Shown here in pieces: positions 32,313 to 50,150 of a stretch of DNA of 64,000 bases. The stretch's first letter is position 1. Each line of letters opens with the position of its first letter. The notes beneath the pieces are model-generated. The model did no database searches. It was not told the DNA's origin and was given only the letters and a program-made list of their open reading frames with translations. Made by a program: the position numbers and the translations under genes. The DNA comes from Haladaptatus caseinilyticus (lineage in GTDB: Archaea; Halobacteriota; Halobacteria; Halobacteriales; Haladaptataceae). The stretch is from positions 2,232,001 through 2,296,000 of the forward strand of contig NZ_CP111036.1 of assembly GCF_026248685.1 (NCBI RefSeq), given 5' to 3'.

Positions 32313-32846
32313 ATGACGAATCTCTGGGAAGACCTGGAAACAGGACCGAATGCCCCTGAAGAAATCTACGCAGTCGTCGAGTGTCTCAAAGGCGACCGGA
32401 ACAAGTACGAGTACGACAAGGACATCCCCGGTGTCATGCTCGACCGCGTGCTCCACAGCAACGTCCACTACCCCGGTGACTACGGGTTCATCCCGCAATC
32501 GTACTACGACGACGAGGACCCGTTCGACGTGCTCGTCCTCGTCGAGGACTCGACGTTCCCCGGCTGCGTCATCGAAGTCCGTCCCGTCGCCCTCATGAAG
32601 ATGGACGACGACGGCGAGCAGGACGACAAGGTCATCGCCGTCCCCATCGAAGACCCACGCTTCGACCACATCGAGGACGTGGACGACATCACGCAACAGC
32701 AGAAAGACGAGATCGACGAGTTCTTCCAGACGTACAAGAACCTCGAAGCAGGCAAGGAAGTCGAAACACAGGGCTGGGAGGACAAACAGTCCGCACTCGA
32801 CGCTATCGAACACGCACAGGACTTGTACGAAGAGAACTTCGCGTAA
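32313..32846 (+). CDS. ppa: Inorganic pyrophosphatase (family I)
   Basis: The enzyme hydrolyses pyrophosphate and drives many biosynthetic reactions. From the ATG at 32313 it has 177 residues, normal for archaeal family I enzymes. The signature DEDPFDVLVL carries the catalytic Asp triad residues, and EYDKDIPGVMLDRVLH and VHYPGDYGFIP are conserved. The C-terminal segment contains YKNLEAGKEVETQGW. The ATG chosen gives the conserved start MTNLWEDLETGP; 28 further codons upstream are not conserved. Confidence 0.97.
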   Translation: MTNLWEDLETGPNAPEEIYAVVECLKGDRNKYEYDKDIPGVMLDRVLHSNVHYPGDYGFIPQSYYDDEDPFDVLVLVEDSTFPGCVIEVRPVALMKMDDDGEQDDKVIAVPIEDPRFDHIEDVDDITQQQKDEIDEFFQTYKNLEAGKEVETQGWEDKQSALDAIEHAQDLYEENFA

Positions 32847-32978
32847 CCGGCGTTCAGACCTGATTTCGTTCGATCGCCTCTTTTCGAGATACGGTCGTCT
32901 ACCGGCTGTTTGCCCGTCCGTTAGCGACATCCGTTCGGAGATGTCTTATAACTGCTACAGTAATCCATCCGGGAATTG

Positions 32979-32987
32979 ATATTATTG
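32979..32987 (+). promoter_or_regulatory. TATA box for the DHH-like gene
   Basis: GATATTATT is centred about 25 bases before the ATG at 33008. This places the true start at 33008, in a different frame from the main part of the gene. Confidence 0.4.
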
Positions 32988-33007
32988 GACACGAACATGC
33001 GACACCA

Positions 33008-34121
33008 ATGCCCACCGGATTCCTCGCCGAAAACGACCTCGTCGTGCTCACTGCACTGCTGTTAGTCCTTTCCGGCGGTGGCATCCTCTACGCCGTCCAG
33101 TTTCGGTACGTTGCGTCGCACGACCGACGAAGCACCTATCGACTCGCTCAAGGAGACGGTTGCCGGACAGAACCGAATCGCACTCGTCGTTCCGGAGGGC
33201 GCGAGTATCGATTCACTCGCCGCGGCTGTCGGTTTACAGGCACTCTGTAATGACTGGGGCGTCGCAGGGCGAATCGCCGCGGAAGGCGAGGTGACGGGTG
33301 AGGACAGTAAGGCGTTCTGTAACATCTTCGATGTCGGTTTGACGACCATCGACGAGCGGGGCGAACGGCTTCGGAACTGCGATGCGGCGATCGCAGTTGG
33401 TGGTGGGGGGGCTGTTCCACGGCTCTCGAACAACCCGCCGGTCGTCGGCGTCATCCGCCACCGGCCGACCGCGGAGGAGAACATTTTGACCATCACGCGT
33501 ACTGACGATGGAGCGACCTCGACCGTCGTCATCAAACTGGCCCGTGACTCGGGACTCATCCCCGACCAACGAGTCGCCACGGCGCTCCTGTACGGTATTC
33601 GCGCCGGAACGCGGGAGTTTCGTCGGGCAAACGGGAAAAACGATTACGACGCCGCCGGATTTCTCCATGCGTTCGCGGATCTCGGGCGTATCGAGGATTT
33701 GCGCTCGCCGGGCGTCAGCGGCGATACCTTCGATGTGCTCGGGGAGGCGATCGCGAACCGGGAACGTCGGGCGAGTTTCGCCGTGACGAACGTCGGTGTC
33801 GTTCCTTCCGTTAGCGCGTTAGAGGAGGCCGCTGATTCCCTTCTTCGACTCGAGGGCGTCTCGACAGCGGCGGTGTTCGGCATCCACGAGGAAACCATCG
33901 TCGTCTCCTGTCGCGCGGAGGACGTTCGAACCAGCGCGGTGGACATCCTCGGATGTGCGTTCGACACGAGCGAAACGACGGGCGGAAACACGGATTCCGC
34001 AACCGCCCGTGTCCCGTTGGGAATCTTCGCACAAGTCGATGGGGAACACGCCACGACGTTGGATTCGCTCATCGACGTAAGTACGCGCAAAGCGTTGTTC
34101 ACCGCGTTCGAGAGTGTATAG
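33008..34121 (+). CDS. DHH-family-like protein with apparent 5' frameshift and degenerate active site
   Basis: The promoter-proximal ATG at 33008 opens a frame with an N-terminal membrane helix (VVLTALLLVLSGGGILY). The following homologous body is in another frame, nominally from a GTG at 33078 inside the helix-coding stretch. Removing one base near 33118 would join YAVQFRYVAS to TTDEAPIDSLKE. The body (about 330 residues) has the DHH phosphoesterase shape, with a C-terminal DHHA1-like half. Metal-binding motifs are worn: the DxD region reads GASIDS, the DHH motif reads RHR, and the later Asp motif is lost (GIRAGT). It may be non-catalytic or a pseudogene. Confidence 0.6.
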
Positions 34122-34206: not shown

Positions 34207-35553
34207 ATGGGTCTCTTCGATAGGCTCCGTGGAGATGACGAGCCCCGGGTAGCCTTCTTTGGTATCGACGGCGTGCCGTACAGCTTTCTTAAAGACAACG
34301 CCTCGGAGTTCCCGAACATTGCGTCACTCGCGAAAGAGGGGAGCGCCGGAGCGATAAACAGCATCGTCCCGCCCGAATCCTCCGCCTGCTGGCCAGCCCT
34401 CACTACCGGCGTCAACCCCGGTGAAACGGGTGTGTATGGGTTCCAAGACCGTGAGGTCGGGTCCTACGACACGTACGTCCCGATGGGTCGGGACGTCCAG
34501 GCGACTCGACTCTGGGATCGTGTCGCGGACTCGGGTCGCAACGCGACGGTGATGAACGTCCCAGTGACGTTCCCGCCACAGCGGAACGTCCAGCGGATGG
34601 TCTCGGGATTCCTCTCCCCCGGCGTGGACAAGGCGGCGTACCCTGACGAACTGCGAAACTATCTGAATTCCATCGATTATCGCATCGATGCGAACGCAAA
34701 ACTGGGGCACAAAGAGGACAAATCCGAGTTCATCGAGAACGCCCACGAGACGCTCAAAGCGCGCTACGAGGCGTTCCGCCACTACATCGAACAGGACGAC
34801 TGGGACCTGTTTTTCGGCGTATTCATGACCACCGACCGGGTGAACCACTTCCTCTACAAACATTACGAGGAGGATGGCGAATACAAACAGGAGTTCATCG
34901 ACTTCTACAAGAAGGTGGACGAATACCTCGGAAAGCTTCGTGACGCGCTCGCTGACGACGTGACCATGGTCGTCGCCAGCGACCACGGCTTCACCAGTCT
35001 CGACCACGAGGTTCACTTCAACCAGTGGCTCGAAAACGAGGGATGGCTCTCCTACGAGGACGACGACCACGAAGAACTCGGCGACATCGCCGACGACACC
35101 GTCGCCTACTCGCTCATTCCGGGCCGATTCTACATCAATCTCGAAGGTCGCGAACCACGTGGAAGCGTGCCTGAAGACGAGTACGAGGAAAAACGAGACG
35201 AACTCAAGGAGATGCTCGAAGGCCTCGAAGGGCCGAACGGCGAGAAGGTCTGTGCCCAAGTCGTCGAGAAGGAAGACGCCTTCCACGGCGACCACGAGGA
35301 CATCGCACCAGACCTCGTCGCCATCCCGAACTACGGCTTCGACCTCAAAGCCGGGTTCAAGGGTCACGACGACGTGTTCGGCGTCGGCCCACGAAACGGA
35401 ATGCACAGCTTCGACAACGCGTCGCTGTTCGTTGACGACTCGGACGTGACGATTCCCGAAGACACGGACCTGCTCGACATCGCACCGACCATCCTCGACC
35501 TGATGGAAGTCGAGTATTCCGCGGGCGAACTCGACGGTCGAAGTCTGGCGTAG
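34207..35553 (+). CDS. Alkaline-phosphatase-fold phosphodiesterase/nucleotide pyrophosphatase
   Basis: The 448-residue protein belongs to the type I phosphodiesterase/nucleotide pyrophosphatase branch of the alkaline phosphatase superfamily. Metal and nucleophile residues are visible: FFGIDGVPYSFL (first Asp), a Ser/Thr-rich PPESSACWPALTTG nucleophile loop, MTTDRVNHFLYKHY (Asp, His), VVASDHGF (Asp, His), and the late GMHSFDNA (His). There is no signal peptide, so it is likely cytoplasmic; the substrate is unknown. The ATG at 34207 (MGLFDRLRGDD) is preferred to the GTG at 34192. A six-T run follows the stop. Confidence 0.87.
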   Translation: MGLFDRLRGDDEPRVAFFGIDGVPYSFLKDNASEFPNIASLAKEGSAGAINSIVPPESSACWPALTTGVNPGETGVYGFQDREVGSYDTYVPMGRDVQATRLWDRVADSGRNATVMNVPVTFPPQRNVQRMVSGFLSPGVDKAAYPDELRNYLNSIDYRIDANAKLGHKEDKSEFIENAHETLKARYEAFRHYIEQDDWDLFFGVFMTTDRVNHFLYKHYEEDGEYKQEFIDFYKKVDEYLGKLRDALADDVTMVVASDHGFTSLDHEVHFNQWLENEGWLSYEDDDHEELGDIADDTVAYSLIPGRFYINLEGREPRGSVPEDEYEEKRDELKEMLEGLEGPNGEKVCAQVVEKEDAFHGDHEDIAPDLVAIPNYGFDLKAGFKGHDDVFGVGPRNGMHSFDNASLFVDDSDVTIPEDTDLLDIAPTILDLMEVEYSAGELDGRSLA

Positions 35554-40194: not shown

Positions 40195-41364
40195 ATGCTC
40201 ACCGGAGTGAACGTGGCGTTGGGGGTGACGGGAAGTATCGCGGCGGTGAAAGTAGTCGAGTTAGCACACGAACTTCGCAGGCGAGGCGCGAACGTCAGGG
40301 CCGTGATGTCGAAGGGTGCACGAGGTATTATCCACCCTTGGGCGGTCGAATTCGCGACCGACAACCCGGTCGTGACCGAAATCACAGGGCAGGTCGAACA
40401 CGTCGAACTCTGTGGCCGTGACGAGTGGGCTGACGTACTCCTCATCGCACCAGCGACCGCGAATACGGTCGGAAAAATCGCGAGTGCGGTGGACGATACG
40501 CCGGTAACGACCTGCGCGACGACCGCCCTCGGCGCGGATGTTCCAGTCGTCATCGCTCCGGCGATGCACGAACCGATGTACGACCATCCCGGCGTGCTCG
40601 ATGCTATCGAGCGCGTCGAATCGTGGGGCGTCGATTTCGTCGAACCGCGAATCGAAGAGGGGAAGGCGAAAATCGCTACCGAAGATATGATCGCACTGGA
40701 TGTCGCCCGAGCGACCGGAGACCAACCGCTCGCCGGAAAGGGCGTCGTCGTAACTAGCGGCGCGACGAGCGAACCCATCGACCCGGTGCGAGTGCTGACC
40801 AGTCGTTCCTCCGGCAAGACGGGCAGAGCAGTTGCTCGTGCTTGTTACGTCGCGGGCGCAAACGTCGCGCTCGTCCACGATGCGCCGGACGTTCCCTACG
40901 CGACCGGCGTACAGGTCGAAACCGCCGAGGAGATGACGGACGCCGTGAACGACCTCATCACGGCGTTTCCGGCGGATGCCCTGGTTTCAGTCGCGGCAAT
41001 TAGCGACTATACGGCTGACGTCGAAAGCGAAAAGATTCGATCCGGACAGGACCTTTCACTCGATCTCCAACCGACGCGGAAACTCATCGATACGGTTCGC
41101 GGGAACTATCCGGGTCTCCCCATCGTCGGCTTCAAAGCCGAGACGAGTGGGGACGACTCGGCGATGGTGACTGCAGCCCGCGAAACGCTTGCCCGTGCAG
41201 GGTGCTCGTTCGTCGTCGCAAACGACGCGAGCGTGATGGGAGAAGACGAGACGAGAACGCTGTTCGTCCGAGAAAACAGCGTTCGAACGTACAGCGGGAG
41301 CAAGACGGAACTCGGATTGCAGGTCGCTACCGAGCTCGCCGAGGAGCTTATGGACGACTCGTAA
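40195..41364 (+). CDS. coaBC: Bifunctional CoaBC (phosphopantothenate-cysteine ligase/decarboxylase)
   Basis: CoaBC adds cysteine to 4'-phosphopantothenate and decarboxylates the product, two steps of coenzyme A synthesis. The N-terminal CoaC flavoprotein domain (1 to about 175) shows ALGVTGSIAAVKVVELAHEL, the PATANTVGKIA motif and the APAMHEPMYDHP loop with the catalytic residues. The CoaB domain starts at VVTSGATSEPIDPVRVLTSR, followed by SSGKTGRAVA. At 389 residues the length is normal. The ATG is 33 bases after the ABC exporter stop, so the two may be co-transcribed. Confidence 0.96.
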   Translation: MLTGVNVALGVTGSIAAVKVVELAHELRRRGANVRAVMSKGARGIIHPWAVEFATDNPVVTEITGQVEHVELCGRDEWADVLLIAPATANTVGKIASAVDDTPVTTCATTALGADVPVVIAPAMHEPMYDHPGVLDAIERVESWGVDFVEPRIEEGKAKIATEDMIALDVARATGDQPLAGKGVVVTSGATSEPIDPVRVLTSRSSGKTGRAVARACYVAGANVALVHDAPDVPYATGVQVETAEEMTDAVNDLITAFPADALVSVAAISDYTADVESEKIRSGQDLSLDLQPTRKLIDTVRGNYPGLPIVGFKAETSGDDSAMVTAARETLARAGCSFVVANDASVMGEDETRTLFVRENSVRTYSGSKTELGLQVATELAEELMDDS

Positions 41365-41426
41365 CGCCCTCGACACCTCGTCGCCAGAGTGATAGCGCGT
41401 TCACCCGTGGTTGCACTCGAATCTTA

Positions 41427-42240
41427 ATGTCCGGATTATCGACATCACTTACGGACGTTCTCGGCATCGATGTACCCATCGTTCAGGCGCCGGTCGGGAG
41501 CGCGACGTGTCCGTCGCTCGCCGCCGCCGCCGATGCTGGTGCGCTCGGCATGCTCGCGGTGACGTGGCGAGACGAAGCGACGACGTGGAAACTGCTCGTC
41601 GAAACCGCGAACCGATGGCGTGTTCGGAGTCAACATCGTCGTGGATTCGAACGCGAAGGAGATTCCGACGACCACTCACATCGATAGTTGTCTCGACGAA
41701 GGCATCGAGGTGTTTTCCTTCTCGTTCGGCGAGGCCGCACCGTTCGTAGAGCGTATTCTCGCCGAGGGGGAATCGCCCTGCAGTCCGTCGGGGATACAAC
41801 AGAGGCCAAAGATGCGGTGGAAAGCGGCGTGGATATCGTCGTCGCACAGGGGAGGGAGGCGGGCGGACACGTTCAGAGCGACGTTGCGACCATGCCGTTA
41901 GTACCACGCATCGCGGACGCTGTTTCCGACACACCGGTCATCGCCGCCGGCGGAATCGCGGACGGGCGGGGTATCGCAGCCGCGCTCTCCCTCGGCGCGG
42001 ATGGGGCGTGGATCGGAACACGATTTCTCGCGACGGAGGAAGCACACGTACACCGACGCTACCGTCGCCGAGTCCTCGAAGCGAACGAAACCGAAACCAC
42101 CTACTCTACCCTCTTCGACGAAGGCTGGCCGGACGTTCCGCATCGCGTCATCGAAAACTCGACCGTCGCGGAGTGAGATGCCGCGGGCAGACCGCCGGAC
42201 GAGCGCCCCGGAGAGGGAGACGGAGACACTGTCCGAAGAA
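41427..42240 (+). pseudogene. Nitronate-monooxygenase-like flavin oxidoreductase, broken by two frameshifts and a stop
   Basis: The gene starts in one frame (SLTDVLGIDVPIVQAPVGSA, flavin-binding TIM-barrel opening) and moves to the next frame near 41610-41625 (GVFGVNIVVDSNAKEIP). It returns to the first near 41765-41770 (ALQSVGDTTEAKDAVESG), where a run of five G would be six in an intact gene. The homologous reading continues through AAGGIADGRGIAAALSLGAD and GTRFLATEEA to a TGA at 42174-42176. Beyond it, in frame, AAGRPPDERPGEG is still family-like, so the TGA probably replaced a Trp TGG codon. The C-terminal 60 or so residues are absent. Confidence 0.75.
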
Positions 42241-42287
42241 ACGATGGATGCACTCGAACGAGTCGATGGATATCGAACGAGCGTCGA

Positions 42288-42629
42288 TTAAGCGTCTCCG
42301 TCTTCCTCCGGCCACTCCGCGTCGCCGAAGAACTCAATGCCCATCTTCTGGGCCGACCGCGAAATCATGTGCGCCCCCGTCGGTGCCGTGATGAACAGGA
42401 ATACGATGCCGACCAGCGAGGTGAGTCCCGCTCCCCGTGGGCCGTGGGAGACGAACAAGGCGAGGAACAGCGAGGCGGCACCGAGCGTGGTCGCCTTGCT
42501 GGTGGCGTGCATTCTGTTGTACACGTCGGGGAGTCGCAACAGGCCGAGCGTCCCGACCACGAGGAAGAAACTCCCGACGACGACGAGCAGTGCGATGACG
42601 ACTTCCTGAACCAGTTGAATCGTACTCAT
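42288..42629 (-). CDS. mnhG: Mrp-type Na+/H+ antiporter subunit G
   Basis: MnhG is a small three-helix subunit of the multisubunit Mrp antiporter. The 113-residue protein has IALLVVVGSFFLVVGTLGLL and LPDVYNRMHATSKATTLGA, the signature of the family. It is the last gene of the seven-gene minus-strand operon; its ATG overlaps the mnhF stop as ATGA. The complex exchanges cytoplasmic Na+ for external H+ at the membrane. Confidence 0.95.
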   Translation of the reverse strand: MSTIQLVQEVVIALLVVVGSFFLVVGTLGLLRLPDVYNRMHATSKATTLGAASLFLALFVSHGPRGAGLTSLVGIVFLFITAPTGAHMISRSAQKMGIEFFGDAEWPEEDGDA

Positions 42630-42919
42630 TTGATGATATCCCCCTCGATGACGTACTGCGAGACTGCGATCGTGCTGATGAACCCGATGATAGCGAGAAC
42701 GAGGCTCACCGTTACGAACAACCCTTCGCCGCGATACAGCGCGAACAGTGCCGCGATCGCGACGACGTTGGTTCCGATAGTGTCCAATGCAACCACTCGG
42801 TCGGGGACTGTCGGACCCTTGATCACGCGGTAGCCCGCGAGCAGCGTAAGTCCACTGGCGATTATCAACCCGGCCAGATAGACGAGGTGGAGGTCGATGA
42901 GACCCGATTCAGTTGCCAT
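42626..42919 (-). CDS. mnhF: Mrp-type Na+/H+ antiporter subunit F
   Basis: From the ATG at 42919 the protein has 97 residues with three hydrophobic helices and the RVIKGPTVPDRVVALDTIG motif of MnhF between helices 1 and 2. The start lies inside the 3' end of mnhE (11-base overlap). The longer frame to 42952 adds a charged stretch not seen in the family. Confidence 0.93.
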   Translation of the reverse strand: MATESGLIDLHLVYLAGLIIASGLTLLAGYRVIKGPTVPDRVVALDTIGTNVVAIAALFALYRGEGLFVTVSLVLAIIGFISTIAVSQYVIEGDIIK

Positions 42920-43553
42920 GACCCTCACCTCCCTCGGACCGTGTCCCGCCATCCGGTTGCTCGGCTTCCTGGAGTTCGCTATCGCTCCGTGTCGAACTCA
43001 CCTCGGGCCGTTCCCGTGCAATCTCGGGAACTGGGTCGCCGGGTTTCCCCTCCTCGTCGAAGATGACGAGGGCGTAGTCCTCCCACGTCCGAATCGGTTC
43101 AACGATCGCGTCGGGGTCTCGAGCGTCGATACTGTGTACGTAGAGCGCGTTGGTTTCCTCGTCGTAATCCATAGTCAGCGTTCCCGGCGTGAGCGTGATG
43201 CTGTTGGCGATGGTCGTAATCGCACCGTCTGTTTTGACCCGGAGCGGGACGACGACGACTCCGGGTTCTATCGGCATGCTCGGTGCGAGCACGCGGTACG
43301 CCACGTCGATGTTTGCCGTCGCGAGTTCCTTCAGGAAGACCGCGACGTAGAGAATCGCGTACGGTGCAGCCTTGAGACTCCGTGTGACGTTCGTCTCCGT
43401 CGTGTAGAACTTCCGGAAGCTGAACGCGATGAGGAGTCCGAAGGCGAGTCCGATCAGGAACTCACCGAGGATAGGCACCGGTTCGAACGCAACGCCTCTG
43501 ACGAACAGCCAGAGGATCGCGAGGACGACGCCGATGACGGGCCATTTCTTCAT
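42909..43553 (-). CDS. mnhE: Mrp-type Na+/H+ antiporter subunit E
   Basis: The 214-residue protein has two to three N-terminal helices and a cytoplasmic domain containing ITTIANSITLTPGTLTMD, the MnhE signature. The C-terminal 45 residues are acidic and Ser/Gly-rich, longer than in bacterial MnhE (about 160 residues), as is common in haloarchaea. It overlaps mnhD by four bases and mnhF by eleven. Confidence 0.95.
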   Translation of the reverse strand: MKKWPVIGVVLAILWLFVRGVAFEPVPILGEFLIGLAFGLLIAFSFRKFYTTETNVTRSLKAAPYAILYVAVFLKELATANIDVAYRVLAPSMPIEPGVVVVPLRVKTDGAITTIANSITLTPGTLTMDYDEETNALYVHSIDARDPDAIVEPIRTWEDYALVIFDEEGKPGDPVPEIARERPEVSSTRSDSELQEAEQPDGGTRSEGGEGHGN

Positions 43554-45118
43554 TTCCCACCACCTCCCATCACCGCGTTGATGTACGTCTGTGGCTCGGT
43601 CGCGGCCCGTGCCGCGGATTCGGCGGCCAGATACACCGGATCGAATCCGATGCCGACCAGCAGAACGAGCGCGGCCAGCACGCTGAGGACGGCGATTCCG
43701 GTCGGCGTGCCACCCTGTTCAACCATCGCGCTTTCCGACCCCCAGAAACCGCGGTTCCACGCTCGGGAGAAGTACGCGATGGTGAGAATCGCACCCGTCA
43801 ATGCGATGGCGAGGGCAAGCGTCGCACCTGCGTCACCCGCCACTCGGAATACGAGGAACTTCCCGAAGAAGCCTGAAAGCGGCGGAATGCCGATGAGCGA
43901 GAGCGCGCCGACGAAGAATACCCCTGAGAGGACGGGATTCTTTCGCGTCAGGCCACCGAGGTCGGCGAACCGGTCGGTGCCGACAGCCGAGAACACCGAC
44001 CCGGATGCGAGAAACAGCAGCCCTTTCGCTAGCGCGTGGTTCAGGGAGTAAATGAGCGCGGCGGTGATGGCGAGGGTTCGAACCCCGGGAACCGTCGCCC
44101 CGATTGCTAGCGGGAGGACGATAAAACCGACCTGTCCGATGCTGGAATAGGCAAGTAAGCCATCGACATCGTCGCGTCCAATCGCACCGATTCCGCCGAG
44201 AAGGATACTCGCGCTGGCCATGATGAACATCACCGGGCCAAAGAACGCGAGCGCGGAGTTCCCCGCAAGGCCGGGGAGTGTGAGTCCGCCGGGAATCGTC
44301 AGCCCCGCGAATACCGTGAAGTAGAGGCGGATGATGGCGTAAATCCCGACCTTCTTCACGACGCCCGCGAGCATCGCGGAGACGGGCGCGGGTGCGGCCC
44401 GGTAGGCCGCAGGCACCCAGAACTGGAAGGGTGCGATACCCGATTTGAGCGCAAACACAGTGAAGAGGAGCGCCGACAGGCCGAGGACCGGAAGCCGTGC
44501 GATGTTCCCCGAATCCGTCGCGAGTCGCTCCGCGAGTTGTGCCATGTTGAGCGTTCCCGTCGTGGCGTAAATGCCACCGATTGCGAGGAGCATCACCGCA
44601 CTCCCGATGAGGTTGAGCACGACGTACTGGAGCGCCGCACGAGTGTGCTCTGGTCCGCTGTAGAAGACGACGAGGACGTAACTCGACATGAGCATGACCT
44701 CGAACCAGACGAACAGGTTGAAAACGTCGCCCGTGAGGAACGCTCCCGTTACGCCCACCAGCATAAAATGGTACAGTGGATGGTACGAGAGTCGCTGACC
44801 GAACTCGTCCACGTACTGCACCGAGAAGGCGAGCGCGGCCAGCGAGACGACTGCCGCCAGCGCGAGCATGAACACCGAGAGCGAATCGGCGACCAGCGTG
44901 ATTCCGAACGGCGCTCGCCAGTCTCCAACTTGATACGCGATGACGTTCGACGCGCCAAGCGGGTCGATTTCAGTCCAGAGTGCCGCCACCGCGGCGACGT
45001 ACACGACGCCACCGAGGAGACTGACACCTCGCTGAATAGTCGAGAATCGCCGGACGACGAGCGTCAGAATCGCCGTCACGAGCGCGACGAGCAACGGTGC
45101 GATAACCAACTGATTCAT
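43550..45118 (-). CDS. mnhD: Mrp-type Na+/H+ antiporter subunit D
   Basis: MnhD is homologous to the proton-pumping ND2/ND4/ND5 subunits of complex I. The 522-residue product has about 14 helices, with DVFNLFVWFEVMLMSSYVL carrying the conserved membrane Glu, and LKSGIAPFQFWVPAAYRAAP with the conserved Lys that takes part in ion translocation. It overlaps mnhE and mnhC by four bases each. Confidence 0.96.
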   Translation of the reverse strand: MNQLVIAPLLVALVTAILTLVVRRFSTIQRGVSLLGGVVYVAAVAALWTEIDPLGASNVIAYQVGDWRAPFGITLVADSLSVFMLALAAVVSLAALAFSVQYVDEFGQRLSYHPLYHFMLVGVTGAFLTGDVFNLFVWFEVMLMSSYVLVVFYSGPEHTRAALQYVVLNLIGSAVMLLAIGGIYATTGTLNMAQLAERLATDSGNIARLPVLGLSALLFTVFALKSGIAPFQFWVPAAYRAAPAPVSAMLAGVVKKVGIYAIIRLYFTVFAGLTIPGGLTLPGLAGNSALAFFGPVMFIMASASILLGGIGAIGRDDVDGLLAYSSIGQVGFIVLPLAIGATVPGVRTLAITAALIYSLNHALAKGLLFLASGSVFSAVGTDRFADLGGLTRKNPVLSGVFFVGALSLIGIPPLSGFFGKFLVFRVAGDAGATLALAIALTGAILTIAYFSRAWNRGFWGSESAMVEQGGTPTGIAVLSVLAALVLLVGIGFDPVYLAAESAARAATEPQTYINAVMGGGGK

Positions 45119-45474
45119 GTGGATTCACCTAGTTCGTTCATGTCGATCGTTCCGTGTTCTTCGTAGACGCGATACGTCAGTACGAGTGCGAACGCGGTCG
45201 TTCCGAACCCGATGACGATGGCTGTCAGGACGAGCGCCTGCACGAGGGGATCGGTGGTACTTCCATGACCGCCGTGTCCCGAGATAATGGGCACGCTCCC
45301 TGCGAAGCCACCCATCGTGACGAGGTAGGCGTTCGTTGCCTGACTGATGATGGTGACACCCCAGACGACGCGGACGATGTCCCGCCGCAGGACGAGGAAC
45401 GTTCCGAGTGCGAACAGGAGACCCAGAACCCCTGCGAGGACGAACTGGGGCTGCGTCGCGACTGTTTCGCTCAT
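45115..45474 (-). CDS. mnhC: Mrp-type Na+/H+ antiporter subunit C
   Basis: From the ATG at 45474 the protein has 119 residues and three helices. It is homologous to NuoK, with VIIGFGTTAFALVL-like (TAIVIGFGTTAFALVLTYRV) as the last helix and a DPLVQALVLT segment. Its start overlaps the mnhB stop (four bases). The same frame stays open to 45945, but that extension lies over mnhB and is a shadow. Confidence 0.95.
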   Translation of the reverse strand: MSETVATQPQFVLAGVLGLLFALGTFLVLRRDIVRVVWGVTIISQATNAYLVTMGGFAGSVPIISGHGGHGSTTDPLVQALVLTAIVIGFGTTAFALVLTYRVYEEHGTIDMNELGEST

Positions 45475-45935
45475 TCTGCACCCACCACCGAGAGGATCGT
45501 CAGAAGCGCGCCAACGACGACGAGGTATACCCCGATGTCGAACGCGAGTGCACTCGCCACCTCGAAATGCGGGTAGAGCGGAATGCCCTCCAAGATGGTG
45601 TACGTTTGGTAGAGGAAGTTCTTCCCGAACACCATCGACACGACTCCGGAACCGGCGGCGATGAGGAGGCCGACCGCGAACATCGCACGGTAGTTCTCGA
45701 CGATACCGTACTGGAGATGTTCGACCGGGCCGCGGACGACGTTGTGGAACAATTCGTCTTCGAGGAAGTCCATTCCGTAGACGATGTAGATGAGGGCGAA
45801 CGCTGTCGTCGTCAGGACGCCCGCGATGAACCCTCCACCGGGCAGGTTGTGACCCTGCAACATCAGCGCCACCGCGGTGACGAAGATGAGGGGAACCACG
45901 GTGCGCGTAATCGTTCGCGTGATGACCGTCGTCAT
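45471..45935 (-). CDS. mnhB: Mrp-type Na+/H+ antiporter subunit B
   Basis: The 154-residue protein has four helices, with LQGHNLPGGGFIAGVLTTTA as the family signature after helix 1. It is the second gene of the operon and overlaps mnhA by four bases. It carries the start ATG at 45935. Confidence 0.96.
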   Translation of the reverse strand: MTTVITRTITRTVVPLIFVTAVALMLQGHNLPGGGFIAGVLTTTAFALIYIVYGMDFLEDELFHNVVRGPVEHLQYGIVENYRAMFAVGLLIAAGSGVVSMVFGKNFLYQTYTILEGIPLYPHFEVASALAFDIGVYLVVVGALLTILSVVGAE

Positions 45936-48346
45936 TGTATCTCACCCCGTTCGCGCATGGCGATGAGCGTCAAGACTGATAGTGCGGCCATGGCGACGAC
46001 CGAGATTTCACCCATCGTATCGAAGCCACGGTAGTCCACCAGAATGACGTTGACGATGTTGTGCCCTCCCGCGATTTTCACGGTGTTTTCGTACTCCGTG
46101 AAGAACGTCGCAATCGAGTTCGGGCTCGCGGCGGTCGTGAGGAGCACCGTGACGAAGACGGTAGCACCGACGGCGAGCGACAGCACACCGTCGCGAAGCG
46201 CTCGACTGCGACTCATCTCCCCGTAGAACGTCGGAAGCCTGTCTAAGACGAGCAGGAAGATGACGAGGACGAGCGTCTCGACGACGAGTTGCGTGAGCGC
46301 GAGGTCGGGTGCTTTTGCCAAAATGTAGAAGATAGCGACCATGAATCCGAGAATCGAGAGCGTGAGCACGCCTGCGACGTGCGACGGGGCGATGCTCACC
46401 GCTACCGCACCGACGACTGCGACCAACAGGACGAGCAACATCGGGTAGGAGATCGCCAGTCCACCGAACGAAGGCAGTGAAACCCCCGCGGCAACGTAGC
46501 CGCCGAGTGCGAGGGTGGAAACCGCGGCGAGCGTCCACGTCGCGTAGGTTCGAAGTAGACCGGTCTGGACGCGAGGCACCATCGCGATGCTCACGTCGTT
46601 CAGGCCGTACACCGTGTTGTCGTACCACCAGTTCGCACGAAGCGGGTTGATCGCGAGCAGACGGTTTACGCCGTCGTGCAACCGGTCGTAGAACGGGTAC
46701 GCCGCTGCGCCGATCGCGATGGTCGTCGCGCTCATGACGGCGGCGGGACTGAGGTGCTTCGGGAGGTGGTAACTGAAGTGGATTTCCTCGGCGTGTGCCC
46801 CCGGTGGAAGTACATTTCCGATCACTTCGCCCACGAAATGGTTGATCATCGTGGGGGCAAAACCGAACGTGTCCGCGACCCCGCCAAGTCCGATGAGCGC
46901 CGCGACGGTGCCGAGGATTGCCGTCGGCACCAGCATCATCGCAGGCGGCCTGTGGACGTGGCCCAGCCCTTTCGGCTTCTCGCCGAAGAAGAGCATCACG
47001 AACTTGACCGAATAGAGGAACGTGAAGATGCTCCCGAAGACGGCAACGATCGGGTAGAGCCACGTGAGGCCACCGTGGACATGAGCGGCCTCGTACGCCG
47101 CGTGGAAGAGGAACTCCTTCGAGTAGAAGCCGTTAAACGGCGGTATTCCGGCCATCCCGAACCCGGCAACCACGGTGATTGCGGCGGTAATCGGAAGGTC
47201 GTGACGAAGCCCACCGAGGTGTTTGATTTTTCGTGTTCCGGCCTCGTGTGCGATGATTCCTGCGACGAGGAACAGAGGTGCCTTGAACATCGCGTGGTTC
47301 AGTATGTGAAACGCACCCGTCTCGGCCCCGAGTTCGGAGGCGAATCCGAATCCGGCGACGATGAGACCGAGGTGACTCGCCGTCGAGTACGCCAACAGTT
47401 CCTTGATATCGGTTGCCGCGACGGCGAGGATGGCTGCGATAGTCATCGTCGCGAGACCGAGTATCGTGAACAGCGTCATCCAGTCGGGGAGTCCGTGTGT
47501 TCCTTCCGTTACTTCGGGGAGCAAGAGCGGTCGGAATCGACCGATGAGGTAGACGCCAGCTTTGACCATCGTCGCGGAGTGGAGAAACGCCGAAACGGGT
47601 GTCGGCGCTTCCATCGCGTTCGGAAGCCAGATGTGAAGCGGTACCTGCGCGGACTTCGCCGCCGCACCGACGGCGACGAGGCCGAGGACGGGAAGCAACA
47701 TGCCAGCGTCCACCAGACCTTCGTGTACCTCGGCGGGATGTTCGAGCATCCACGCGAGGTCGAAGGCGTGTTGCTGTGACACCGTGTTCGCCAACAATAA
47801 AAAGCCGATGAGCATGAACAGACCACCGGAAACGGTGATTATCATCGACTTCCGTGCGGCGTATTGCGACGACCGCCGGTCGGTGTAGTGGCCGATGAGG
47901 ATGAACGAGGACAAACTCGTCAGTTCCCAGAACACGAAGAGGGAGACGAGGTCCGCTGCGAACGCGACCCCCAGCATCGACCCCATGAACGCCAGCAGTG
48001 CGGTGTAGTACTTCGCTTTGCCCGGTTCGTCATGCATGTACGCGCCCGAGTACGCGAGGATGAGGACGCCAACCCCGCTGGCGAGGAAGCCGATGAGGAG
48101 CGCGAGGCCATCCACGTAGAACCGGAGCGAGACTTCGAGCGCGGGTATCCACTCGAACGAAACGGCGCCGTGTGTGCCGTACTGGCTTGCTACCATCGCG
48201 AAACAGGCGAGCGCCACCGCCGATGCGTAGTAGGCGGTGCGCTCCCCCAGCACGCGGTACACCAGCGGCGTCAGCGCCGCCGCCGCGAATGGAAGCATCA
48301 CCAGCGCAAGCACAACCACGGCTACCGGGTCAGATGGTGATTGCAC
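45932..48346 (-). CDS. mnhA: Mrp-type Na+/H+ antiporter subunit A
   Basis: MnhA is the largest Mrp subunit, homologous to complex I ND5, and forms ion pathways in the antiporter. The 804-residue product has the ND5-like part (about 1-510) with ELTSLSSFILIGH, a conserved KSAQVPLHIWLPNAMEAPTP and the HAMFKAPLFLVAGI segment. The C-terminal region carries the extra helices (LTLSILGFMVAIFYI, LVVETLVLVIFLLVLDRLP), the MbhD/MbhE-like part. A CTTAACG box near 48372-48379 lies about 28 bases before the ATG. It leads the whole operon. Confidence 0.96.
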   Translation of the reverse strand: MQSPSDPVAVVVLALVMLPFAAAALTPLVYRVLGERTAYYASAVALACFAMVASQYGTHGAVSFEWIPALEVSLRFYVDGLALLIGFLASGVGVLILAYSGAYMHDEPGKAKYYTALLAFMGSMLGVAFAADLVSLFVFWELTSLSSFILIGHYTDRRSSQYAARKSMIITVSGGLFMLIGFLLLANTVSQQHAFDLAWMLEHPAEVHEGLVDAGMLLPVLGLVAVGAAAKSAQVPLHIWLPNAMEAPTPVSAFLHSATMVKAGVYLIGRFRPLLLPEVTEGTHGLPDWMTLFTILGLATMTIAAILAVAATDIKELLAYSTASHLGLIVAGFGFASELGAETGAFHILNHAMFKAPLFLVAGIIAHEAGTRKIKHLGGLRHDLPITAAITVVAGFGMAGIPPFNGFYSKEFLFHAAYEAAHVHGGLTWLYPIVAVFGSIFTFLYSVKFVMLFFGEKPKGLGHVHRPPAMMLVPTAILGTVAALIGLGGVADTFGFAPTMINHFVGEVIGNVLPPGAHAEEIHFSYHLPKHLSPAAVMSATTIAIGAAAYPFYDRLHDGVNRLLAINPLRANWWYDNTVYGLNDVSIAMVPRVQTGLLRTYATWTLAAVSTLALGGYVAAGVSLPSFGGLAISYPMLLVLLVAVVGAVAVSIAPSHVAGVLTLSILGFMVAIFYILAKAPDLALTQLVVETLVLVIFLLVLDRLPTFYGEMSRSRALRDGVLSLAVGATVFVTVLLTTAASPNSIATFFTEYENTVKIAGGHNIVNVILVDYRGFDTMGEISVVAMAALSVLTLIAMRERGEIQ

Positions 48347-48864
48347 ACTCGAATGTGAGCAATGGACTCACCTTAACGCTTCTCAATACCTCCGACGCCG
48401 GTGTCGAAAATTCCTGAACAATCGTCCAGTAGCAAGCTTAGAAATAGCCCATGTTTGGATTTCTCGGCCATAATGACTCGGTGAGTGCCCGTTCTCCCGA
48501 AACGGCGCGTTCTTGGTCCACGGTCCGTCCGACCCCGACGCGTGGTAGTTAACGGACGACACAATGCCGAGCAAGCGATGAGGACCGAACGAGTCCAGCG
48601 ACGTATTGAGAGGAGAAAATATAGCCTATCCAATATATTTATATTTCGAAAATATATCAAAATATAATACATGGAGTCATCCAGCCATATACTTATTAGG
48701 TAGGAGTATCAAAGCCTGTAACAACGCGCTCATCATCCGAAAAATGCGGAACTGCACGGGAGACAAAACCATACAAAATTCGACAGTAGGAAATATCTGT
48801 CGGAAAAATTAGTATCCAGTGTGGTTCCGACCGGTGATACTGCGCGTCGCAGGAGAAACCAAAC
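48347..48864. other. Gene-poor, AT-rich region between mnhA and pilA
   Basis: No gene is supported. The mnhA promoter is at the left. From about 48600 the sequence becomes very AT-rich (many TATATA and AAATAT motifs) and then runs into the pilin gene's leader. An inverted repeat CGACAG/CTGTCG (48781-48786 with 48797-48802) lies about 70 bases before the pilin ATG. A Shine-Dalgarno GGAG at 48852-48855 precedes the pilin. Confidence 0.5.
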
Positions 48865-49326
48865 ATGACACTCAAAGAAAAAATGGACGCAGTAGCGGAG
48901 CGAGACTTCGAGCGAGCCGTATCACCTGTTATCGGCGTTATCCTCATGGTTGCTATAACGGTAATATTGGCCGCTGTGATTGGGACCTTCGTGATGGGTC
49001 TTGGGAATAGTGTCGAGAAAAACGTGAACGCTGGCGCAGAAATTAGTGCAGATAAAGCAGCCAATGGTGCAGTCACCGTCACTTGGGTCAGCAAAGGGAC
49101 CGCTAGTCAGGTCAGTGTAAAGGTCAAAGAAAAAGGTGGGACAAATAACGGAACTGCAACAATCAACAATATTGGTGATTCAGTAACAATCTACGAAAAG
49201 TCCGGAGGAAACGACGATCTTGGATTTAGTGCCGATGGCGACCGCCAAGTTCAAATCATCGTAACTGCCATTGGCGAGGACGGTGAAACGAAGACCGTAA
49301 TCAATAATGAAGAGGCAACGATTTGA
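48865..49326 (+). CDS. Type IV pilin (PilA-like)
   Basis: The 153-residue protein has a class III signal peptide: FER then AVSPVIGVILMVAITVILAA, with probable PibD cleavage between Arg17 and Ala18. The hydrophobic helix is followed by a Thr/Lys/Gly-rich beta domain. This is the haloarchaeal type IV pilin N-terminal domain (DUF1628-type), found in adhesion pili. Codon use is distinctly AT-richer than in the neighbouring genes. No pilus-assembly genes (PilB/PilC-like) are adjacent, which is common for haloarchaeal minor pilins. Confidence 0.9.
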   Translation: MTLKEKMDAVAERDFERAVSPVIGVILMVAITVILAAVIGTFVMGLGNSVEKNVNAGAEISADKAANGAVTVTWVSKGTASQVSVKVKEKGGTNNGTATINNIGDSVTIYEKSGGNDDLGFSADGDRQVQIIVTAIGEDGETKTVINNEEATI

Positions 49327-49520
49327 TTCTTTTTAGCATTTGTTAACTATTTTAGCTATTATTCTATTTACTATAAACTATTTACTGTTCATAGTGTTAG
49401 AGTCATAATTACTAGTTCAAATTTTCTAACCGATCCACTATATGGTGACTACTGGAGAAATTCTCTCCGTCAGTCAACAATCCGTCCACATGTGTGTGTG
49501 AATATTCGTGTTTCCCAAAA
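49327..49520. other. AT-rich spacer downstream of the pilin gene
   Basis: This stretch has no gene on either strand. It is rich in T and A with TTTAGC/CTATT-type repeats and ends just before a TATA box at 49524-49532. Confidence 0.5.
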
Positions 49521-49523
49521 ACT

Positions 49524-49532
49524 CTTTAAATA
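49524..49532 (+). promoter_or_regulatory. Strong TATA box upstream of a non-coding structured stretch
   Basis: CTTTAAATAT sits at 49523-49532. It would start transcription near 49555, close to an ATG at 49553. It is one of the best TATA matches of the region, yet no conserved protein follows. Confidence 0.45.
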
Positions 49533-49552
49533 TCTCACCCGAAGAGGGGAGA

Positions 49553-49760
49553 ATGACCCTCTCGAATACCGCAGCTCACCGAAAAAAGGCCAGCAGCGAT
49601 GATTTCAGGAGCCTTCCAAAAGGGGAATGGAAACGAATCGAACCCCGCTGGGTTAGAGTAGGGGTTTCGACAATCGAATTGCTGAGGTGCGGGTTCTCTC
49701 CCACCCGCATTGACTCAAACGGGTCGGGTGGTAAAAGAAATGAGCCTTATCCGCAGTGAA
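49553..49760 (+). ncRNA. Candidate structured small RNA (or 68-residue leaderless protein)
   Basis: After the TATA box lie nested hairpins. TCGAACCCC (49638-49646) pairs with GGGGTTTCGA (49661-49670) with one bulge. TTCGA/TCGAA (49667-49671 with 49675-49679) is an alternative stem. TGCGGGT (49688-49694) pairs perfectly with ACCCGCA (49703-49709). The stretch could also be read as a 68-residue Ser/Arg-rich ORF from ATG 49553 to 49759, but the composition is unlike haloarchaeal proteins. RNA and protein are both open. Confidence 0.35.
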
Positions 49761-50150
49761 AGTGAAAGTGTGTGACACTCGGTGACGCCGATCGACCTCG
49801 GTTTGGCAGGGGTGGATTTGGAACCGAGACAACGGTACGACCGCTGAAGTTGCGAACGCTAGGCACGGACCAGCCCCCATTCAGCGAGTCGCTCGTGGTT
49901 TCATCACCCATCCACCTGTTGGTTCGGACGGGAATGGCCGAACGAGGTTCCCGCATTTGCGGGCGGGGCGTACGTCCGGAACTTGCGGTCAGCACTCCGC
50001 CAAAACCAACCCCGGTGTCTCGATAGTGCGGCGTCCTTACAACACGAATACCGATACCGACAGTCATACCGCGAGTTCACATCACGTCAGAGTATACCTA
50101 CCGCACCGCCAATACCGGCACCTTTTACTGCTGGGTTGAATACCCCCAAC
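49761..50150. other. Hairpin-rich non-coding region upstream of hpt
   Basis: This stretch has no supported gene. It includes a GTGAAA direct repeat at about 49756-49772. CTCGGTT (49797-49803) pairs with AACCGAG (49822-49828). GTTCGG/CCGAAC (49922-49927 with 49938-49943) and CCCGCA/TGCGGG (about 49950-49963) form further stems. The right end carries the hpt promoter. Confidence 0.45.
50122..50129 (+). promoter_or_regulatory. TATA box of hpt
   Basis: CTTTTACT lies about 26 bases before the ATG at 50151, the spacing for a leaderless start. Confidence 0.4.

Follow-up and report, generated by a model that had tools for sequence, protein, structure and literature searches.

A DHH-like gene of the haloarchaeon Haladaptatus caseinilyticus, found at positions 33008-34121 of the 64,000-nucleotide stretch of contig NZ_CP111036.1 that was analysed here (in the following, the window), raises the question of whether a broken reading frame and a set of missing catalytic motifs are two signs of one and the same decay. 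The first-pass annotation had considered this possibility and, alternatively, that a non-catalytic DHH-like protein is expressed from an internal start. According to our data, frameshift and motif losses are unrelated to each other: the losses are ancestral, while the frameshift is private to the window genome (4.82 Mb, 7 contigs, 99.99% complete). Judged by homology and conservation, the gene is a conserved, membrane-anchored DHH/DHHA1 pseudoenzyme.

Both parts of the gene can be recognized in the DNA (Table 1). The frame of the ATG at 33008 encodes a membrane helix within its first 33 residues (best 19-residue Kyte-Doolittle mean, 2.30), and the DHH-like body is displaced from it by one frame, as had been claimed and as sequence and reading frame positions confirm. 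The body is covered by an open reading frame of 347 amino acids (33078-34121) that opens at a GTG codon. Removal of a single base does restore a continuous frame, as predicted, since the window carries one surplus base in comparison with the orthologues; its position, however, is slightly 5' of the proposed 33118, as the DNA alignment of the Haladaptatus orthologues brackets it by a CGG codon (33104-33106) and a TTG codon (33111-33113). An orthologue is present in all eight other Haladaptatus genomes (82-93% identity), and in seven of them helix and body are continuous, in an open frame of 370-372 codons whose start is an ATG equivalent to that at 33008. The helix is likewise in frame in all aligned members from Halorussus and from a second archaeal family. 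Among the 41 members of our alignment, which leaves out a dead copy from H. halobius, the window gene is the only exception; its helix is there, but one base off the body. Measured against the intact orthologues, it carries a disabling lesion, and to judge from a body that is 82-93% identical to theirs, the frame break is more than chance. Comparison with related haloarchaea, which the first-pass annotation had suggested, thus revealed that the N-terminal helix and the motif losses are both shared; neither homologues that start at the internal GTG without the helix nor homologues with intact motifs were found.

The TTATAACTGCTACAGTAATCCA block upstream of the gene is near-identical in three close relatives in an alignment of nine Haladaptatus loci, and an A+T-rich stretch is located about 20-30 nt 5' of the ATG. 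This stretch could be a TATA box that drives a leaderless transcript. Together with the block common to the relatives, it makes the earlier description of this ATG as promoter-linked plausible.

Table 1. Features of the pseudoenzyme locus and its conserved neighbours (positions in the window).
Feature	Position	Strand	Remarks and basis
Class I inorganic pyrophosphatase (ppa), upstream, conserved neighbour	32313..32846	+	Neighbour tblastn; name read from sequence
Upstream region: TTATAACTGCTACAGTAATCCA block and A+T-rich stretch	32940..33007	+	Nine Haladaptatus loci aligned; sequence
ORF from ATG 33008 as it stands	33008..33250	+	80 aa; helix, then out-of-frame residues
N-terminal membrane-helix segment MPTGFLAENDLVVLTALLLVLSGGGILYAVQFR, own frame intact	33008..33106	+	Hydropathy, orthologues
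GTG, nominal internal start, accidental	33078..33080	+	Start in no orthologue; no upstream Shine-Dalgarno
Frameshift junction, with a single base more than in any intact orthologue	33104..33113	+	DNA alignment; HSP frames 2 and 3
DHH-like and DHHA1-like body, catalytic motifs absent, conserved pseudoenzyme	33111..34121	+	hhalign, conservation; Pfam below cut-off
Alkaline-phosphatase-like phosphodiesterase, downstream, conserved neighbour	34207..35553	+	Name read from sequence

Apart from the break, the window copy does not resemble a pseudogene. In a two-ratio codon model of our own, which compares the window branch with the background, omega of the body is 0.048 on this branch and 0.053 elsewhere (2dlnL 0.07; profile range about 0.027-0.088, approximate 95%); hence there is no relaxation of selection. 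Its private changes, 10 replacements to 34 silent ones, do not differ from the 24:120 of intact relatives (p=0.38), and its helix segment has not diverged beyond what they show. With the body at background omega and the helix undegraded, the break must either have happened very recently, reflect a base error or be bypassed. If a broken gene evolves neutrally, we estimate from the bounds on omega that such a phase can occupy no more than about the final 4% of the branch. An undegraded body would, of course, equally be expected of a functional gene.

The H. halobius orthologue (L014, 1320-2490) presents a different picture. It has an ACG where the start ATG is expected, an indel at the junction of helix and body, an in-frame TGA in the body and six changes at residues that are otherwise invariant; its private changes comprise 11 amino-acid and 16 silent substitutions (p=0.008). 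This copy appears to be decaying, independently of the break in the window. The codon model by itself does not set it apart (omega 0.084, 2dlnL 1.6), which indicates that the model has limited power for recent events. That one genus should show two such breaks, independent of each other, suggests that its members can do without the gene. Both broken copies carry their indel between helix and body, and the net phase is identical; as the linker differs in length even among intact relatives, this could just be a stretch where indels arise easily.

We consider ordinary gene loss, through recent inactivation of the window copy, the probable cause of the frame break, and favour it over an assembly error and over a soluble product from an internal start. 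The surplus base between helix and body breaks the frame in the window genome, and as the break is very recent, the gene has most likely just been inactivated, as happened independently in H. halobius, and would yield at most the 80-amino-acid helix peptide. The earlier suggestion of a decaying gene consequently retains some merit for the frameshift, as a possibility and for a very recent event only; for the motif losses it fails, as they are ancestral and strongly conserved in all 41 members.

Considerably less probable is a base error in the assembly, with the gene of the strain itself as intact as those of its relatives. Such an error would look identical to the single-base lesion observed, and it would fit with a helix, a body and an upstream region that have not decayed. 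However, the homopolymers at the junction do not exceed three bases, while indel errors of long reads usually occur in longer ones; the window holds no other clear frameshift break; and a dead copy of the gene exists in another species of the genus. In 400 kb of this genome, moreover, frameshift-type breaks affect just 2 of 193 conserved genes, the window gene included, in a census that counts cases with HSPs in two frames and a best HSP without a stop (its "stop" calls mostly look like over-long ORF starts). A more widely poor assembly as the cause is therefore unsupported. The identical census in two relatives gave 0 of 183 and 6 of 185; the latter value, obtained for contig C1 of genome G004 (3315001-3715000), lies above that of the window genome and may point to assembly errors there.

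It is rather improbable that the body is still made, unanchored, from GTG 33078 or from the TTG at 33111, resulting in a soluble pseudoenzyme. Selection on the body has not been relaxed on the window branch, the reading frame is open from 33078, and the H. halobius indel of the same net phase could be taken to mean that lesions at the junction are tolerated. Yet neither of the two codons is preceded by a Shine-Dalgarno sequence or used for initiation by any relative, the helix is conserved as it is elsewhere in the genus, and the body of the H. halobius copy carries a TGA as well. In every orthologue the GTG is out of the frame of the body, into which the surplus base alone has put it. Expression from an internal start, as proposed in the first-pass annotation, is thus unsupported, since the relatives use the ATG equivalent to 33008 with the helix in frame. 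A programmed +1 frameshift joining helix and body during translation, to which the shared net phase change at a matching place in the two broken copies might hint, is hardly credible, since the frame is zero in seven members of the genus and in every other intact relative, and since the site has neither a shared slippery sequence nor an in-frame stop.

The frameshift itself is of little weight; the interesting part is the pseudoenzyme family to which the gene belongs. Its homology to catalytic paralogues from the same genome extends over both domains and places the protein within the DHH/DHHA1 superfamily (hhalign P=100, E=8.4e-48, 292 columns, 35% identity; tblastn E down to 7e-50). The window protein remains below the Pfam cut-offs, with 13.8 of 28.1 bits for DHH (PF01368) and 15.2 of 25.9 bits for DHHA1 (PF02272), as does an intact orthologue that we scanned in detail (16.9 and 17.0 bits), and a PF01368 search of the window genome did not recover the gene. 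Profiles matched no solved structure by sequence, and AlphaFold2 yielded no usable model for six orthologues (mean pLDDT 37), so that the pocket is known from sequence alone. The clade was detected in all 28 genomes of the family of the window genome, Haladaptatus and Halorussus included, and in 13 of one genus of another family. It is monophyletic (100/100 support) on a long stem, and across 392 genomes of the order a wide gap separates its members (at least 463 bits) from all other proteins (at most 232 bits); as sampled here, it appears only in the Haladaptataceae and this one further haloarchaeal genus. One genome, G020, from the same genus as the Halorussus-type genomes, possesses a second divergent copy (L070/L104) with 57% identity to the window body, situated outside the usual pyrophosphatase locus.

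The worn motifs described for the window protein (GASIDS, RHR and a lost late Asp motif) do read that way, and the GGH motif is gone in addition. Compared with the catalytic-type paralogues of its own genome, motif I has changed from HDNPDPD to PEGASID, VDH to GGGG and DHH to RHR; motif IV reads GIRAGT, and the GGH of DHHA1 reads GGN. These are properties of the clade. In motif I (H-x-x-x-D-x-D), His is replaced by Pro and the first Asp by Ser in 41 of 41 members, so that D68, the second Asp, alone is left. The place of V-D-H in motif II is taken by a GGGG loop (GGAG in a single member); D-H-H of motif III is R-H-R throughout, with the middle His retained; the acidic position of motif IV (G-I-x-x-[DE]-T) is Gly in 40 members and Ala in one; and Asn or Asp substitutes for the His of the GGH substrate motif in every member that covers this region. 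When these are placed on the six metal ligands of family II pyrophosphatases, four are gone, and D68 and H151 remain. P62, S66, D68, G131, G132, G134, R150, H151, R152, R198, A199 and T201 are invariant across the 41 members, and the replacement residues are thus fixed as firmly as catalytic ones would be. As the losses are common to two families, catalysis was lost before the genera split, and the protein was kept for something else. That the motifs decayed within the window genome itself is practically out of the question: unlike the catalytic consensus as they are, identical losses with fixed replacements in all 41 members and two families, under strong purifying selection, refute a local origin. 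The description of a non-catalytic DHH-like protein was therefore right, and the losses are conserved across the clade.

What might such a protein do? One N-terminal helix anchors it in the membrane, and from the basic residues that follow, the positive-inside rule predicts a cytoplasmic body. The ancestor of the clade had already exchanged GGH and four of the six metal ligands of the DHH fold, and they have stayed replaced ever since. We infer a ligand-sensing or regulatory function without hydrolysis, the likeliest roles being that of a membrane-held binder of a phosphate-containing ligand or that of a partner of the catalytic DHH paralogues. More specifically, and as a tentative proposal, the metal site could have been rebuilt into a pocket (S-x-D, GGGG, RHR, RAGT) that takes phosphate or a nucleotide without metal, and the protein could act as a sensor or regulate the catalytic DHH paralogues of its own cell.

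The genomic setting is conserved as well. In both archaeal families the gene order is TFB, RNase H, an orf, a PadR-like gene, ppa, the pseudoenzyme gene and the phosphodiesterase gene. Four checked genera that lack the pseudoenzyme gene have ppa and the phosphodiesterase gene adjacent to each other, about 300-500 bases apart; in a further four, the two are not neighbours within the retrieved stretch. Elsewhere in the window, positions 41316-50112 have no aligned counterpart at the syntenic place in three other Haladaptatus genomes. On its minus strand (about 42909-48346), this segment contains genes that read as an operon for a multi-subunit Na+/H+ antiporter of the Mrp type, adjoined by an A+T-richer stretch at about 48.3-50.0 kb.

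We found no description of this membrane-anchored DHH/DHHA1 family, and a literature search turned up nothing specific on a link to c-di-AMP. The nearest known relatives of the family are the DHH/DHHA1 proteins of subfamily 1 (NrnA-like oligoribonucleases/pAp phosphatases and the haloarchaeal TrkA_N-DHH-DHHA1 proteins), with the same two-domain architecture of about 300 residues; six catalytic-type paralogues of this subfamily in the same genome are about 28-35% identical to the window protein. In contrast to them, it lacks motifs I, II and IV, the aspartate of DHH, and GGH, and it has a membrane helix where TrkA_N would be. The TrkA_N-DHH-DHHA1 paralogue L002 and its orthologues L016-L018 have DHY for DHH and AAGH for GGH; L002-type paralogues may represent a second departure from the classical enzyme. 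L002 matches family II (Mn-dependent) inorganic pyrophosphatases in the PDB, which have the DHH fold in common with the window protein. The latter gives a weak, sub-threshold NCBIfam match to these enzymes but lacks their metal ligands, and the adjoining pyrophosphatase appears from its sequence to be of the unrelated class I.

Inactive DHH proteins have mostly been described from the replisome, with Cdc45 and RecJdbh as examples. The eukaryotic Cdc45 and the Sulfolobus RecJdbh proteins have lost their catalytic residues and have been retained for a non-catalytic job (PMC7776575). Both are replisome components of the RecJ branch, whereas the clade described here is of a membrane-anchored DHH-DHHA1 type and shows nothing that would tie it to GINS or MCM. 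Its catalytic site was lost separately, within the DHH-DHHA1 branch, and strong selection maintains the protein in all sampled members of one haloarchaeal family. Linked to a membrane helix and with a fixed place next to a pyrophosphatase gene, it is a clean case for studying what role a dead phosphoesterase has at the membrane.
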